From Chlorella sorokiniana (Eukaryota; Chlorophyta; Trebouxiophyceae; Chlorellales; Chlorellaceae), in the NCBI GenBank assembly GCA_025917655.1, contig CP084620.1, positions 2,480,001-2,544,000 on the forward strand: a stretch of 64,000 bases of DNA. The letters run 5' to 3'. Position numbers and translations under genes: made by a program. How positions within the stretch are numbered: position 1 is the stretch's first letter; every line of letters starts with the position of its first letter. The notes beneath the pieces were generated by a model. It had not been told where the DNA came from and ran no database searches. It was given only the letters and a program-made list of their open reading frames with translations. Shown in pieces: positions 51,329 to 62,239 of this stretch.

Positions 51329-52041
51329 TTACAGGCCGTCGTCGGGCTTGTGCATGAGAATGATCTGATCCACCTTTGCTTGCAGCGTGTCTAATCGCCC
51401 ATTAAGCTTCGTGTCCTTCTTCTTCATGCTGGCCTTGACCTCCCCCAGGCTCGTCTGCACACCAGCGATGTTGAGATCCAGGCTCGCCTGCACACCGGTG
51501 ATTTTCAGACCCAGGTTTGTTTCCACGGCTTTGAGCTTGGTATCCAAACTCGCATCCAAAGTTTTGATGCTGCACCCAAGCTCCACCAACTTCATCAACA
51601 CGTTGAAGGCGCCAATCACCCCCGCCACAAGGAGCGATGCCACCAGGGGAACGCTCACTTCCCGCCAGAAGCCCTGCACAATGGCAGTGGGTGCAGTTGA
51701 GGCAGGTCACTCGGGCATGCCAGCAAACACACAGAACCAAGAGGTCAGCTTAGGCCACTCAAATGTGTGACCAACATGCAACAGGAACCAAAACTCGCCG
51801 GAAACTCCCAGAATGGGCGGCCACCATCGCCGCTGCTGCCGCCGCCACTGCCGTCGCCGCTGCCTCCTCGTCCACCGTTGCCGCCGCCTCGCATGCTGCC
51901 TCCCTCCGTCTGGGGGCGGCCAAGGCAGCTGTGGGGGAGCGGGACGCGCCCGCCCTGAGCCACCGCGCCCGACGACATCGCCGGGCGCCTGTGGCTCGCT
52001 GACAGCGGTGAAACCGGCGCTATACGGGGCAAGGCATGCAT
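51329..52041 (-). CDS. Coiled-coil membrane protein, copy 1 (lineage-specific family)
   Basis: Not a family I recognise. ATG 52041 starts MHALPRIAPVSPLSASHRRP, leading to a Gly/Ser/Asp-rich low-complexity part and GRPFWEFPASFG. An intron then ends at a strong TTGTGCAG acceptor near 51671. Exon 2 reads GFWREVSVPLVASLLVAGVI (hydrophobic, probably one membrane span), followed by a regular coiled coil of repeated segments (KLKAVETNLGLKI, VQASLDLNIAGVQTSLGEVK, LNGRLDTLQAKVDQI). The stop TAA lies within CTGTAAC and overlaps a polyadenylation-type motif. A near copy is at 55342-56061. The intron donor is uncertain, so the exon 1 frame may be wrong; exon 2 is the better supported part. Confidence 0.5.
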
Positions 52042-52717
52042 GATGAACAAGTGTACAACCTAAGACGCGTCACAGACATATATGAGGGCAGGACGCGTCG
52101 TCATGACGACGAGACGCGCAGCAGGGCGTTGGTGCAGGGCGCCAGAACTCCTTCCTCCCGGAAGTTCCCTCCTTGATGATTGAACGATTGCCGTCCGAGG
52201 CCAGAACCCCAAGAATGCGTTGTGGCGGGGTACCCAAAGACTGAGGGCGAGCTCACGACCGTCAATGCAGATTTAAACCGTGCCGTATGAAGGTGAACGT
52301 TTTCGAGGCCAATGCAGCCCAACAGCTCCATCTCTTCTAAACCTGGCCTGCCTCCCTGCTTGCTGTCCCAGGTGCTTGTTAACGCATCAGGAAAGCGTGT
52401 GAAACGGTGGAGCTGCCCAACAGCCTGATGGGCTCCTGGCAGCGCAGGATGGCGTGGCCGGTGATGCCGCCGACAGGCGCTGCAGGCTCTGTGCACCTCC
52501 TGGCACCACTACCTAGTTGACCTGCCTCAGGCTTTTGTTGGGGCTGGTCGCACGTTCATTGATTGTTTATGCGATGGATTGATGCGCTTGTGCACCGAGC
52601 TATGCTCAAGCCGTGGAGCAAGGTCTGCATCCGTCTTGCCTCACCACTGCGTCTCGCTGCTGCTGCTGGGGCCTATGTCAGGTGAGCGCAGGACGTATCG
52701 CGCTGCTTTATAACATC
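52042..52717. other. Region between coiled-coil copy 1 and the dehydrogenase
   Basis: Upstream flanks of both divergent genes. The first 60 bases (to about 52,100) still belong to the segment duplicated at 56,040-56,120. The remainder is single copy. No separate gene was recognised. Confidence 0.45.
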
Positions 52718-54280
52718 ATGCAGCAGGAACAGTCGACGTGGGCAAGCCACCTTTTGGCGCTGCCGCGCTCTTTGCCCGACTTGCCTTGCCCTGGCTCGGG
52801 CGTGGCCCCTATCCCTGCCCCCGTCTACGTCCTGTTTGGTGCCCGTGGCGGTATTAGCAGCTCCCTTGCCGAGCTGCTGGTTGCCCAGCCCGGCGTGCGG
52901 CTGCTATTGTCCGGGCGAAACGCTGAGAAGCCGGCGGCGCTGCAGTCTGACGCGGCGGCGGGGGCCACCGAGGTGGCCACGGCCGCGGCCGACCCCTTGG
53001 ATGTGCATGCGGTGGATTAGGTCATTTCGGAGGCGGTGCAGCGATACGGGCGGGTGGAGGGCATCGCCAACTGCGTGGGCAGCGTGCTTTTCAAGCCAGG
53101 TGCGGCTTGGGGAGCCAAGCCCGCTCGTCGCCGGCTCTCACCAACAGCTGGCTTTGCATGCCGCCACCCTAGACTGGGTCGCACCTCCCATCACTACACT
53201 TCCTGGCCCGTGCAAGCATATGCTCCTGAACAGCGGCCCCCGCAGCCTCGCTGCCTCATCATGCCCTCCCCACCTAGACCCAACATCTGCTCCTGCCCTG
53301 CCGCAGCCCACAGCACCAGCCTCGCCGAGTTTGAATTCGTGCTGCGCACCAACCTGCTCTCCTCCTTTGGCATGCTGCGGGCGGCGGCCAAGGCCATGTC
53401 CCGGCCCGCCAACGGCGGCGGCTCCATCGCACTCTGCTCCTCGGCGGTGGCCTGCCACGGCATCGCAAACCACGAGGCAATTGCTGCGGCCAAGGTGGCT
53501 GGGCAGGGGTGGTGGCGTGCGCTGTGGAAGGTCATGTGCAGCGCTTGGGAGCAGGGTGGCGGGCTCTACAGCAGAGGTCCGGCTGGTGGGGTGGCAGAGC
53601 TCAGCAGAGTTTGCGTACCACCGGAAGCGGGGGCAGGCCGAACAGGAGCCACACAAGAGGGCAGCAAGCTGGTCCTGTGAGGCTTATTCTGTGCAAACGG
53701 AACGCTCCCATGTTCGCCTTGCAGGGCGGCGGCGCGGCCATGGGGCTGCCAGCGGCGGCCACCTACGCCCTGCGCAACGTGCGGGTCAACTGTGTCGCGC
53801 CAGGGCTGACCCTCACGCCGATGACCCACACAGTCACAGGTGGGGCTTCTGCCGCCTTGCTGCTGCAGCTGTCGATGGCCTCTCGTCCTGATGTGTTGCT
53901 CCCTGCGTGCCTGCTTCACGTGCGCTGCGGTTGGCAGCCCCGCTGCCTAACCCGTGCACCTAGCTCGTGCGCTAGGCGATGGTCTGGGCCCCTCTTGCCA
54001 TCGCCGCCATCGCCGCTGTCAACCTTCTCCACACACAAACACACACGTATATGCACGCATACTTGCCACTCCAACAACTCTCCGTCCCCCCACCCACCCA
54101 CCCATATGCAGGCAGTGAGGCGGCCCTTATGGCCAGCACAGCACTGCAGGCGCTGCGCCGCATCGGCGAGCCCCAAGAGGTGGGCCCGCCCTCGCCTTCC
54201 TGCTGGACCCCCGCAACTCGTTTGTGACGGGGCAGGTGCTGGGGGTGGACGGCGGCCTGGGCTGCCTGCGGCCAGCGTGA
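52718..54280 (+). pseudogene. Short-chain dehydrogenase/reductase (SDR) gene with an in-frame stop
   Basis: The first exon shows the SDR Rossmann start, PVYVLFGARGGISSSLAELL, and LLLSGRNAEK, then RYGRVEGIANCVGSVLF. A TAG at 53018-53020 interrupts the frame (DVHAVD-stop-VISEAV). Later exons give FEFVLRTNLLSSFGMLRAAA, the NNA-region equivalent GSIALCSSAVACHG, NHEAIAAAK at the catalytic-loop position (no YxxxK tyrosine), VRVNCVAPGLTLTPMT, and a last exon [18 protein letters not shown], which then loses frame by one base compared with the copy at 56458-56628, ending at 54278-54280. Either this is a decayed gene or two sequence errors are present. The missing tyrosine is shared by some SDR proteins in phototrophs, as far as I recall. 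TGTAA occurs at 54389-54393. Confidence 0.7.
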
Positions 54281-55341: not shown

Positions 55342-56061
55342 TTACAGGCTGTCGTCGCGCTTGCGCATGAGAATGATCTCATCCAGCTTTGCTTGCAGCG
55401 TGTCTATTTGCCCATTAAGCTTCGTGTCCATCTCATCCATGCTGGCCTTGACCTCCCCCAGGCTCGTCTGCACACCAGCGATGTTGAGATCCAGGCTCGC
55501 CTGCACGTTGATGATTTTGAGATCCAGGCTCGTTTCCACGGCTTTGAGCTTGGGATCCAGGTTCGCATCCAAACCCTTGATGCTGCACCCAAGCTCCTCC
55601 AACTTCATCCAGACCCACACGCTGCAGCCGCCAATCACCCCCGCCGCAAGGTGCGGTGCCCCCACGGGAACGCTCACTTCCCGCCAGAAGCCCTGCACAA
55701 TGGCAGTGGGTGCAGTTGAGGCAGGTCGCTCGGGCATGCCAGCAAACACACAGAACCAAGAGGTCAGCTTAGGCCACTCAAATGTGTGACCAACATGCAA
55801 CAGGAACCAAAACTCGCCGGAAACTCCCAGAATGGGCGGCCACCATCGCCGCTGCTGCCGCCGCCACTGCCGTCGCCGCTGCCTCCTCGTCCACCGTTGC
55901 CGCCGCCTCGCATGCTGCCTCCCTCCGTCTGGGGGCGGCCAAGGCAGCTGTGGGGGAGCGCGACGCCCCGGCCCCCGAGCCATCACGCCCGAAGACACTG
56001 CCGGGCGCCTGTGGCTCGCTGATGGTGGTGAGATCGGTGCTATACGGGGCAAGGCATGCAT
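55342..56061 (-). CDS. Coiled-coil membrane protein, copy 2
   Basis: The counterpart of the gene at 51329-52041, offset by about 4.02 kb. ATG 56061 starts MHALPRIAPISPPSASHRRP. The second exon reads GFWREVSVPVGAPHLAAGVI, then the coiled coil (KLKAVETSLDLKI, VQASLDLNIAGVQTSLGEVK, LNGQIDTLQAKLDEI) to a stop at 55342. The coiled-coil frame is kept, but the membrane-segment region differs strongly and is less hydrophobic than in copy 1. Unlike copy 1, one frame happens to be open from the start through the presumed intron, so an unspliced reading is also possible. The intron and exon 1 are almost identical to copy 1 over about 290 bases, whereas exon 2 is not. Confidence 0.5.
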   Translation of the reverse strand: MHALPRIAPISPPSASHRRPAVSSGVMARGPGRRAPPQLPWPPPDGGRQHARRRQRWTRRQRRRQWRRQQRRWWPPILGVSGEFWFLLHVGHTFEWPKLTSWFCVFAGMPERPASTAPTAIVQGFWREVSVPVGAPHLAAGVIGGCSVWVWMKLEELGCSIKGLDANLDPKLKAVETSLDLKIINVQASLDLNIAGVQTSLGEVKASMDEMDTKLNGQIDTLQAKLDEIILMRKRDDSL

Positions 56062-56150
56062 GATGAACAAGTGTACAACCTAGGACGCGTCACAGACATA
56101 TGTGAGGACATGACGATGAGACACTCGCAGCGTGCCCAGCACCCGACAAG

Positions 56151-56628
<478 letters not shown>

Positions 56629-56675
56629 GCTGCGGCGGCTGCGCATCGCCACACAGCGGCCTGGCCGTTCGCCCT

Positions 56676-56775: not shown

Positions 56776-57298
56776 GTGAGCTACCGATGCATCAATGACA
56801 TGTAAGGTAGGCGCTGCAAACTTGCCTTCATGCTAGAACCTATGCTTTGAAGGCTTACAGATGGCACAGCGTGGCACCGCATGGCTTTTGCTTCTGCGAG
56901 CACTGTGCATGTTTAGGTGTGGCAGTGCGGGCACGTGGAGGAGTACGCTGCATTAGGACAGCTAGCGGAAAGCGGGGTGCATTCAGCAGGGGGAAAACAC
57001 TGATGGCTGACAGTCATGCATTGCGGGGGTCATTGGGCGACAAGGGGGAAAGGGGTTGGGGCTGTGATGATGGCCGCCAAACAGTTCACCAGGTCGCCGG
57101 CCGTTAAACGGCTGGACGCTGCTCGCTGGTTCACTCAACAGGCGCATACCGGCCACGGTGGTGGTGTGTGTGTGTTGGGGGCGGGGCGCGCGTGCGCCAG
57201 CGGCGGCACACCATGCCCTCAGCTAGGTGAGCAGCTCCGCGATGATGCAGCGGCTGCGTGCGGCGCCGCTGCTGCCAGGCACGCAGTCAGCTTGCCGC
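56776..57298. other. Spacer downstream of sulfite reductase
   Basis: About 520 bp holding the presumed 3' untranslated region of the sulfite reductase gene. The open frames on the plus strand have no recognisable features. A short GT run occurs near 57,165. Confidence 0.45.
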
Positions 57299-60200
57299 TC
57301 AGAGGCCGAGATGCTTGCGGATGGCCTCCGTGGCCAGCGCTGCCGGGCTGACCCCCGCTTCTGCGCCGCCGCCGCCAGCTCAGCGTACACATCCTCCGCC
57401 ACCCCCACCTGCACCGCCGCCTAAGCGAGGGCGGCCGCGGGGCCGGGGACGCGGCCTCAGCACCAGAAAGCCGGCAAACCGCCCAAGCTTTGGCTGGCAG
57501 TCAAACTTGGATCCTCTGGCTGGACCGCTCTTCCGCCCCTTTCAAATAGGCTGTCAGCCCGCCCATTCCCCACCGCAGCCCCACCTTCACCAGCCCTCAC
57601 CTTGGGCAGCTTCTCCGCCTCAGCAGGCGAGATGTAGGCGGCCTGGAACTCGCGCAGCGCGTCGAAGCCCACCCGCGCCGCAAAGTCGCCCAGCGACTCC
57701 TCGGGCCCCCGCCGCTGCGCCTTGAACATGGCAAAGATGGGCTCCAGGAAGGTCTCAAAGTCCTGCGGGCAAGAGACGACGGAATGTCAAGTCAACAGGT
57801 AAACATGTGACTCCAGCTTGCACAACGCCCGCACGTCCGGGCGACGTGCAAGTTACTAGCCAGTGCCAAGTATCGCAGCGACGCATCAACCGCTGCGTGC
57901 AAAACGGAATCCCTTTATTCCCACTCCAAAAGCCAAAGTGCACACAAACACAGCCACCCACCTTTGCCTTGACGCGCTCCGCAAACGGCTCTGCCAGGCG
58001 GGTGGCGTTGAGGGAGCCGCCCAGCCAGACCTGGTAGGAGTTGGGTCCGTCGCCCACCAGGCCCAGCTCAGCCATGTAGGGCCGCGCGCAGCCGTTGGGG
58101 CAGCCTGGGGAGGGAGGGGCGAGAGAAAGAACGATCGAGCGAGGAGGGATAAGCGGCGAGGGGCGGGCACGCGGGCAGGCAGCACCACGCAGCGCTGCTG
58201 CACACAGACGCCAGGGCCTGCGCTTCCCAGCCAGCAGCGCGGCAGGCGGGGCGCAGACCAGACTCGCGCGCTGCTATGGGGCAGCGCGGCAGGCGGGGCG
58301 CGGCCCAGACTCACCGGTTGCGCGCACCACAAACTTCTCGCTCTTCTCGAAGCCCAGTCGGTCGAGCAGGGCGCGGATGCGGGCGTTGAAGTCGGGCAGC
58401 GCGCGCTCCGCCTCGCCGATGGCCAGGCCGCAGAGGGGCAGGGCGGGGCAGGCCATGGACAGCGACTCGATGCGGTCCCACTCCACAAGGTCCTTGACGC
58501 CGCCGGCCTGCGGTGGAGGAGAGGCGAAGCGGTGGAGGAGGCGTTGAAGGGAGGGAGGGATGGTGGGTAGAGTGACGAGCGTCATGCAAGCGGTGCAGGA
58601 TGGCAGCGCAACACAGGTTGCAGCAGGGCGGGAGCACGTGTAAGCAGGGCGGGAGCACGTGTAAAGGACGGAATGCAGGTGTTGCCCGAGACGGGTGCAA
58701 CATGAGGTGCAGGGAGCGAGCCCGGGGCCTGGCCTCAGGCTAACGAGATTCCAAGCTTTTCGATCGTCAGAGTGTGGTCGGATGGTACGGACAAAAGCGG
58801 TGGTCATCACCAGCCAGGCCCCCACGGCATGCGGCAGCACATGAGGCAGCTGCCGCCCGCTGCAACCGCCAGCGCAGCCAGCACTCAAGCAGCGGCAATC
58901 GATGCAGGCAACTCGAAAGCGCATTCTGCCCCCGTCCCTCCTTACGCCCTGCAACCTCTTTGCTCTCACCTTGAGCGTGGAAAGGATGTCGTCCTTCCAG
59001 GATGGGTTGATGTCGCGCAGGATGAGGTTCTGGTTGGGGGTGATGATCACCGGCAGCTCATACCGCTCAATCACGTTGCGTAGCGCCTTCTTCGCCTCGC
59101 CCTTCACCCGCCCGTTCTGCGGTGGCGGAGGCAGGCAGTGCAGGTGTCGGGGCTTCATGGCGTGCAGCTTAGGCTGGGAGAATCTCCCGCTGCTTGTCAA
59201 CCTGCCGTGGACACAGAGTCTCCTCTGCCCCGGGTGCTGGCTCCCCGCATTGCTGCAGCATCCCACGAGCCTCCCTCCCCCGCCCCTCCTCCTCCTTTCC
59301 GCGCGCGCGAGCACACACACCACAAAGACAAGCACGCACCTGCACGTAGATGCCGTAGGCCAGCTTGCCGTCGCCCTGCTCCATCCAGCCCAGGTAGTCC
59401 TTGAACTCCCAGGGGGCAGGGGGCGGAAGGGCTGCAGCTTCTTGCCGTAGTACTGCTCCACCACCGAGCGGAACTTGTCCACACCCCACTCGTGGATCAG
59501 GTACTTCAGGCGGGCCTGGCGGTACAGGAGGGCGGGGGGGGGCGAGTCAGACAGCATGTCAGCAACAAGCCCGGGCAACAGCCTGTAAGCGCTGCAGCAG
59601 CCAGGGCACCCTGGCGAAGGCCGCACCACACCCAGGGAGCCAGCCGCCGACAGCACAGATCCCTGCGCTGGCGGCGCCGGTGCGCAGGCGTGGTGCCCAC
59701 CTGCTTGCGGTCGTCGCGGCGGCCGTAGTCGCGCTGCACCGCCACCACCGCCTTCACCGCGTGGAACACGTCCTCAGCAGGCACAAAGCCCAGGGGATCG
59801 GCCAGGCGGGGGAAGGTGGTGGCCTTGCCGTGGGACCGGCCTGCAGGGGGCAGGGGCGGCGCAGGTGCACAGGGGGTGAGCGGCTGGTTCCACATTCTGG
59901 GGAAGCAGTTTGAGAGCGGAGCCAGCGGCCTGCGGGAGGAGAGATGGCTGCGGATGGGAGGCCGCAGCAGCCGTGCCGGTGTGCGCCGCGGCAAGCGTCC
60001 GCCGCGGCAAGCGTCCCGTGCTCTCTCCCCCTGGCAACACATCCCCTCACCCATGCCGCCGCCTGCCACCAGGTTGAAGCCCTGCAGCTGCCCAGCATCG
60101 TCGGTGATCACCACCAGGCCCAGGTCGTTGGTGAACAGGTCCACAGAGTTGTCGCCAGGCACTGCGGGGCGGTCGGCGGTACAGGAACAATGCCAGCTCC

Positions 60201-62239
60201 TTAACACGGAGCCGCAGACAGGGGAGGCGGCGGGTCCCATGCCAGGAAAGGGAGGAGGCAAGGCAAGGGCGGCAGGGGGCGCCAGCAGCGCGCGAGGTGC
60301 AGCCGGCGGCAGCGCGATGCAAGGGGTGCAGGGAGGCCTCAGCGGTGTTTGTTGTCCACAGTGCGGCGGCGCGAACGCCGGGCTGGCGGAAAGATAACGC
60401 AGTTTACCAAGGCATCCGCGGCCGTCGCTGGCGTGCAGGCATGAGCATGCAGCTGGGCGTGCGAGGGGGCGAGAGGGGCCGTCTACCAACCATCGCATAG
60501 CGTCCAGCGAACGCACCCGTGACAGCGACCTTGAACTTGCGGGGCAGGAAAAGGGGGCCGTAGATGGGCTCGGGGCTGCCCTCAAAGTTGGTGCCAAAGC
60601 CGTTGAAGGAGCGGTCCTCAATGACCTTGGGGTTCTGCACCAGGGGCGAGGTGTGGGGGACAGACCAAAGCAGTGGCTTCAAGTGTGGTGCCCCCTGTGC
60701 CGGCAGCAGGTAGCTCTGGGTGCTGCTGGCCAGCGGCAGCTGCACAAGCCTCCTGCAGCATCTGTACGAGGCTTCCGCGGCAGCTGCACGCACCTCCATC
60801 GTGTGCGCGAAGAACTTCTCGCCGTCCAGCCACACGTCGTAGTAGGCGCCCGACTGGGGGCCAGCAGATCGGCGATGTCGTTGGCGTACTGATCGGCGTA
60901 CCTGCAAGCCGAAGCGGACAGGGGGACATGGGGCAGCGTTGAGAGGCCGCGGACGGGTGCAAAGCGCAGAGCCACAACGCAGCTTGCGAATTTTCTTACG
61001 GGGCAGGGCAGACCGTTTGCAGCAATCGCCCCAGCAGCAAGGCTACTGTGACCTGGTGCAGGGAGAAGACAAGAATCCATGGGGGTGCGGCAGCAGGGGC
61101 GCACCGGTACTCTGGGCGGTCCTTGTAGGGCGCCGGGGGCGCCATGACGTTGCGGTTGGCGTCGCCGCACGCGCCCAGCGTTGAGCCCATGTTCTTGATG
61201 ACGGTGCTGAACACCGTCTTCAGGTTCTGCTTCAGCACGCCGTGCAGCTGGAACGTCTGGCGCGTGGTCAGGCGCAGCGAGCCGTTGCCGTACTGCGGAC
61301 GGGGCAGGACAAGGGCGGCCGGCTGAGCGCGGCTGGGGCCGCAGCAAGCACCGTGGCCGCGGCAGCACGACCTGCCCATGCAACCTTCTCAAGAAGTTTG
61401 GCAGCAGGGGACATGAAGCAGCAAGCTACAGAAGAGCCCGCTGCAAGCGCCGCGCAGCGGCCTGGTCCGCTGCGGGCATCACAGGCGCCCCAGGCGTTCC
61501 CGCGGCCCTGCCCCGCGTGCGCTGGTGGCTGCGCTGCCCCCTGCCGCTGTCCGTCGGCTCACCAGGTCTGCCAGCTCATCCATGACCAGGTAGAGCTGGT
61601 TGGTGACGCAGCCCGAGGGCTGCCGCGTGCGCATCATGAACTGGTACGACTTGCCCGCGCCAAACGTGCGCTGCTCGCGGTTGTCCTGCATGTAGCTGCC
61701 GTGGAACTTCATCAGCTGCACCGCGTCCTCGGCGATGGAGGGGGCCTCCGTCACCAGCTCCTGCAGCGCGGGGCGCGGCAAGGATGAGCAGAGGCGCGGG
61801 AGGGCTTAGGTGAGCCGGGCGGCAGCGGCGACGAGACGCCGCGTGCTGGGAGGCAACTGCTGGCCAACACCCTGGCCTCAGCCGCGTTGGTGCAGTCCCC
61901 GCGCAGCACATGGCCACTCATGGCAGAACAGCCAGGCACAAACTGGCAGCAGGGTGGCAGCGTGGCGTCGCTGCTGCCGCTGCCAACGGCTGCATGCGGC
62001 GCCACAGCCAACCACCCACACCAGGCGCCCACCTGCATGAGAGGGTGCCTCAGGAAGTCGCTCTTCTCCTTGATGATCTCCACCTTGGAGCGCTTTGCCT
62101 TGTTGGAGGTAGGCGGCCGGCTGGGAGTGGCGACGCAGGTCACCGTGAGCGCGCCCCGCGCGCTGCTGCTGCCCTGGGAGGGCTGGCGGGTGGCAAGCCC
62201 GCTAGCGCCGCCCGCAAAGGCGCTGCTGGACGCCTGCAT
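57299..62239 (-). CDS. SIR: Ferredoxin-dependent sulfite reductase with C-terminal ribbon-helix-helix extension
   Basis: Reduces sulfite to sulfide in the plastid using siroheme and a 4Fe-4S cluster. ATG 62239 starts a transit-like peptide ([14 protein letters not shown]). Family hallmarks: [14 protein letters not shown] and [20 protein letters not shown] (61560-61740), [96 protein letters not shown] and the cluster ligands CPALPLC and CPNGC. The usual end, [11 protein letters not shown], is followed by one more exon (57299-57420) after a TTAG acceptor. With one G restored in the run at 57352-57356 this exon encodes strand VQVGV, helix [13 protein letters not shown], turn KRGVS and helix [15 protein letters not shown], a ribbon-helix-helix shape. 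Two other G/C runs (59412-59416, 60856-60860) each lack one base. Confidence 0.93.

Follow-up and report, generated by a model that had tools for sequence, protein, structure and literature searches.

The last exon of the ferredoxin sulfite reductase (SiR) gene of Chlorella sorokiniana, which lies on the minus strand of the 64,000-nucleotide stretch analysed here (the window), appears to encode a C-terminal tail of the ribbon-helix-helix (RHH) type homologous to the tails of bacterial SiRs. It is quite probable that this exon is the inherited C-terminal RHH tail of the cyanobacterial and plastid enzyme, with subunit pairing as the likelier surviving role and tethering to DNA weakened or lost.

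The SiR locus sits in a genome of 38.8 Mb and 15 contigs, in a window with a G+C content of 60-75% measured in 2-kb steps. The minus-strand exons match TIGR02042 (ferredoxin sulfite reductase) serially, from profile position 3 to 581, between approximately 62122 and 57601, the match of the first exon being weak in the exon-by-exon profile search (E 0.028). The exons cover the profile jointly, with no single one reaching the 731.5-bit cut-off, and the closest solved relative of the central exons is the maize chloroplast SiR, 5h8v. One SiR gene was reported when the genome was searched with the TIGR02042 profile, the sole match elsewhere being a short and partial one on contig 6 (profile positions 306-343). 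The features of the locus are the following:

56855..56859, minus strand: TGTAA, about 440 bases downstream of the SiR stop, which we take to be a possible algal polyadenylation signal
57299..57420, minus strand: last SiR exon, RHH tail split between neighbouring frames by the lack of one base at a G5 run (profile match, mend control, sequence reading)
57352..57356, minus strand: the G5 run (C5 on the plus strand), site of the frame break, one base short
57421..57600, minus strand: last intron, 180 bp, donor AAG/GTGAGG, acceptor CGCTTAG/GCG, phase 0, splicing inferred from the sequence
57601..57762, minus strand: exon in which the SiR catalytic domain ends (TIGR02042 up to 57634)
57601..62122, minus strand: whole span of the ferredoxin sulfite reductase catalytic exons (TIGR02042; 5h8v for the central exons)
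59340..59521, minus strand: catalytic exon whose reading changes frame close to two C5 runs, one base lacking
60785..60924, minus strand: stretch holding a catalytic exon that changes frame close to a C5 run, one base lacking (first half weak, 6.7 bits)

Outside the gene, the segments 53840-54280 and 56170-56630 are very similar and, on visual inspection, would each code for the final part of a short-chain dehydrogenase-like protein, and pieces near 51750-52080 and 55770-56090 are likewise repeated; these repeats suggest a local duplication.

The acceptor ...CTCGCTTAG ends at 57421, both ends of the last intron agree with the consensus, and the last exon runs from 57420 to 57299 and terminates in TGA; if the intron were retained, the protein would receive a different tail of 47 residues. 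As sequenced, a single base is lacking between the first 23 codons of the exon and the remaining 17, which puts the two parts in adjacent frames.

A profile was built from 46 SiR tails, all bacterial and none algal, and the 1,535 six-frame open reading frames (ORFs) of the window were searched with it. Its best match was the unmended first half of the exon (E 8e-4, profile positions 6-24) and its next best the unmended second half (E 0.21, positions 22-39), the two taking up consecutive positions of the profile. The joined algal tail reached 31.7 bits (E 8e-9) with the same profile, which places it in the family of cyanobacterial SiR tails. A 57-tail profile found the first half at E 0.0024 and, within E 1, listed no second half among the window ORFs; with a full-length SiR profile the first half scored just 0.1 bits (E 0.66). 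In the genome search with the tail peptide (38.8 Mb, best candidates scored) just the two halves of the last exon were returned at E 0.001. The top Pfam family of the algal tail is RHH_5 (E 7e-4, 19.7 bits, under the gathering score of 26), followed by PHBC_N as a second weak match; in NCBIfam a RelB-type antitoxin was matched at E 0.0012 with 19 bits versus a cut-off of 50, and solved structures were matched by the algal tail alone at E 0.2 or worse. Algal and plant relatives were also sought in viral contigs, and none of the 82, 6 and 35 candidate stretches from three scans was confirmed.

It is extremely improbable that a GC-rich 3′ region came to resemble an RHH domain by chance once a frame had been chosen, even though the sequence is alanine-rich and Pfam offers just the sub-threshold RHH_5 match and the weak one to PHBC_N. 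With a third profile, A1, built from 46 tails, the joined 40-aa algal tail scored 28.6 bits, a value reached by none of 2,000 shuffles, the best of which had 11.6 bits (1,938 of the 2,000 reported). When the G/C runs of at least five in the window were lengthened by one base, giving 2,089 frames of which A1 reported 1,495, the last exon came first, the same exon mended via another run came second with 15.3 bits, and the best frame outside the exon had 5.8 bits. Chance is rejected on these shuffles and mendings, and the tail is moreover placed directly after the catalytic end, as the bacterial tails are. A genuine frame break, by which the strain would be losing its tail and the protein would end in other sequence after KRG, agrees with the assembly as given, which does contain the break, but is very improbable. 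Both halves of the tail still resemble the profile, and breaks of the same sign occur in two catalytic exons (59521-59340 and 60924-60785), both near C5 runs, of the sole reported SiR gene. G/C runs of four, five and six bases number 540, 287 and 36 in the window, the fives being in excess and the sixes depleted: the ratio of counts from one length to the next is 0.31, 0.27 and 0.31 up to length four, then 0.53 for five over four and 0.13 for six over five. Such a pattern would be expected if longer runs had collapsed to five, so the frame break in the last exon is likely to be a sequencing or assembly error. The reading of the locus as a pseudogene is disfavoured because it would require three breaks, all of one kind, in the sole reported SiR gene.

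The tail that the earlier note had proposed is found at exactly the coordinates given there, and it does lie beyond the enzyme's own C-terminus, TIGR02042 having come to its last position (581 of 581) at 57634 in the upstream exon. The assumption that one G is missing from a G-run is borne out by the two frames one base apart at the G5 run, and the excess of G/C fives together with the two same-sign breaks in the catalytic exons agrees with the claim that this type of error is found across the window.

The fold was modelled for a cyanobacterial relative of the algal tail, namely the SiR tail of locus L022, as a single chain with AlphaFold2 and 46 sequences, resulting in a mean pLDDT of 92.7 and helices at 11-24 and 28-41; no strand is seen in this monomer model. 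Among solved structures the leading Foldseek matches of the L022 tail are ParG, CopG, StnY, MazE antitoxin, MatP, CopASO antitoxin, Arc and PutA, with TM values to the query of about 0.8 for the leading matches and 0.60-0.86 over the 50 rows shown, so that the structural likeness to solved RHH domains is present in the cyanobacterial tail; the model is short and every E-value is above 0.05, with none at 0.001, and the list also includes a designed protein, McdB and a Cas7-AcrIF25 complex. The A1 profile compared with solved chains matched AvtR (E 1.4e-5) and E73 (E 0.0088) and, more weakly, Mnt, PutA, ParG and other RHH chains mixed with designed or unrelated ones, and did not list the maize SiR 5h8v at E 1. 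The RHH families are the commonest Pfam families among the 46 A1 tails at E 0.01, with RHH_5 found in 19, RHH_3 in 13 and RHH_1 in 12.

With 48 residues of SiR as the query, bacterial and archaeal genomes gave at least 592 matched stretches, 568 of them confirmed, and the SiR ORFs of the best 80 loci (L013-L092) were read through to the stop. All but one of these loci have cyanobacterial titles, the exception being L072, which is titled Tatlockia and is perhaps a misplaced contig. A tail with the RHH pattern follows the catalytic domain in 59 of the best 80 loci, including L072 (57 were caught by the search pattern, and L049 and L070 were added by hand after reading), 20 lack it, and L031 runs into N. 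Eleven of the 20 tailless loci are titled Prochlorococcus (L025, L059, L065, L066, L074, L076-L079, L081 and L085), and these are all the loci so titled in the set. Between SiR and the RHH tail, L047, L050, L058 and L067 (Trichodesmium, Okeania and relatives) have a repetitive linker of about 150-250 residues, and in L091 (Prochloron) acidic repeats of the DENEDKIEIVNM kind come after the tail.

The breadth of the tail was also sampled in 98 genomes from the phylum of the L022 genome, with thresholds of E 1e-6 for the tail and E 1e-150 for TIGR02042. The tail was matched in 34 genomes, one match apiece, and TIGR02042 in 37, with 36 of the matches above the cut-off; the remaining one (G100), below it, had no tail match, and the other 61 genomes had no SiR at E 1e-150. 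In 34 of the 36 SiRs above the cut-off the tail is part of the same ORF, as judged from the same contig and strand, coordinates that adjoin and ORFs of equal length, and the two tailless ones are ORFs of 596 (G095) and 598 aa (G089). Outside SiR, the tail profile gave a second, weak match in one of four cyanobacterial genomes (G002, E 1e-3).

For the comparison of the single algal sequence with the 59 bacterial tails, positions were numbered from the Y/F of helix 1, taken as 0. The algal residues V−7, V−5, V−1, Y0, L+3, A+7, G+11, L+17, A+21, I+22 and L+26 agree with the common bacterial ones, and the fold core is not wholly kept because +25 is H in the alga (Y in 56 of 59 bacterial tails). 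The alternating pattern and the structures of Arc and CopG suggest that −10, −8, −6 and −4 are the strand positions facing DNA; in the alga they are A, Q, G and A, none of them basic, and among the bacterial tails one, two or three of the four are basic in 12, 17 and 30 cases, respectively. Hence the basic strand of an RHH DNA-binding domain, as it is found in bacterial SiR tails, is lacking in the alga, where Q is a polar residue. The invariant R−8 (59/59) is replaced by Q, the R at −10 (46/59) and the R or K at −4 (30/59) by A, the K at +4 (53/59) by A, and the K or R at +12 (51/59) by V. Basic residues of the algal tail include R+10 (R in 3/59), R+23 (K in 11/59), K+24 (K in 3/59) and, provided that the exon is spliced as modelled, K at −12; its net charge is +1, versus a bacterial range of −1 to +5 with a mean of 1.66. 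In Arc a Gln touches DNA, and the algal Q at −8 could be in contact with DNA as well.

It is rather unlikely, though to be weighed seriously, that the inherited algal tail is still a working DNA-binding module, holding SiR at the plastid nucleoid in the way put forward in the earlier note and reported from some land plants. The family shared with cyanobacteria and the remaining Q at −8 and, given the splice, K at −12 are in favour of such a role. According to a review, SiR (DCP68) binds and compacts plastid DNA, this binding is regulated by phosphorylation, and the enzyme is abundant in the nucleoids of some plants but was undetected in the maize nucleoid proteome (PMC4154389). The conserved C-terminally encoded peptides (CEP) of land plant SiRs are important for chloroplast nucleoid localisation, as stated in a paper on maize SiR (PMC6249382, citing Kobayashi et al. 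2016, doi 10.1093/gbe/evw093). Against a working module stand the four non-basic strand positions, the loss of the arginine found at −8 in all bacterial tails and the uncharged residues at +4 and +12. The tail had been put forward in the earlier note as a direct structural reason for DNA binding by SiR: its RHH type is supported, and the algal copy is weakened as an explanation because the strand positions that probably face DNA have no basic residues. Two further claims made there are not supported. A module spliced onto the algal enzyme does not agree with the presence of the tail in most of the cyanobacterial SiRs sampled, and the claim that it is undescribed does not hold as worded, a conserved C-terminal SiR peptide having been reported for land plants (cited in PMC6249382).

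We prefer to regard the exon as the tail that cyanobacterial and plastid ferredoxin sulfite reductases have inherited, with pairing as its more likely remaining role. RHH domains fold as intertwined dimers, so the tail would most likely pair SiR subunits, and in relatives with a basic strand the paired tail could also dock SiR on DNA, which would fit the nucleoid-type plant enzymes. Read from one algal sequence, the tail appears to have retained most of its dimer core and to have lost the charge of its DNA face, and with the core kept and the strand neutral pairing would be likelier to survive than DNA tethering. DNA binding by the algal tail may be weakened, and its affinity for DNA may have been lost. 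More tentatively, the RHH tail may be ancestral to cyanobacterial and plastid SiRs, a docking or pairing tail that would predate plastids and that the alga, having neutralised the strand, might now use for pairing alone; we hold this to be possible and somewhat short of probable. Given the occurrence of the tail in most cyanobacterial SiRs sampled, docking at the nucleoid, or pairing of subunits, would be a trait handed down by descent, which lineages keep, retune or lose.

What is new here is that the algal tail keeps most of the fold core but with a neutral strand, and the cyanobacterial breadth is worth following. An RHH motif was reportedly proposed for the plant SiR CEP by Kobayashi et al. 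2016, and if a cyanobacterial tail is described there, this breadth is not new. Searches of open-licence PubMed Central (without bioRxiv) for sulfite reductase together with ribbon-helix-helix and for ribbon helix helix together with chloroplast nucleoid found no paper, one for the enzyme with CopG in cyanobacteria led to a single paper, on copper homeostasis, and the cyanobacterial tail may still be described.

The land plant nucleoid-type SiR has, like the algal enzyme, a conserved peptide past the catalytic domain, and from its description we infer that the CEP is the same thing as the algal tail; in comparison with the plant peptide as described, the green-algal tail is encoded on its own exon and has a neutral strand. 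The cyanobacterial SiR tail occupies the same place and has the same hydrophobic pattern (AERGVSITSL in L022, QKRGVSPAAL in the alga), whereas the bacterial strands are basic and many of the tails are preceded by a linker, the algal strand being neutral and the linker short. PutA, found among both the profile and the Foldseek matches, is likewise a metabolic enzyme with an RHH domain, which in PutA is N-terminal and belongs to a sequence-specific repressor. CopG, Arc and ParG, all of them Foldseek matches of the L022 tail, share with it the strand-helix-helix arrangement of about 43 residues but are small free proteins, whereas the SiR tail is a domain fused to an enzyme.
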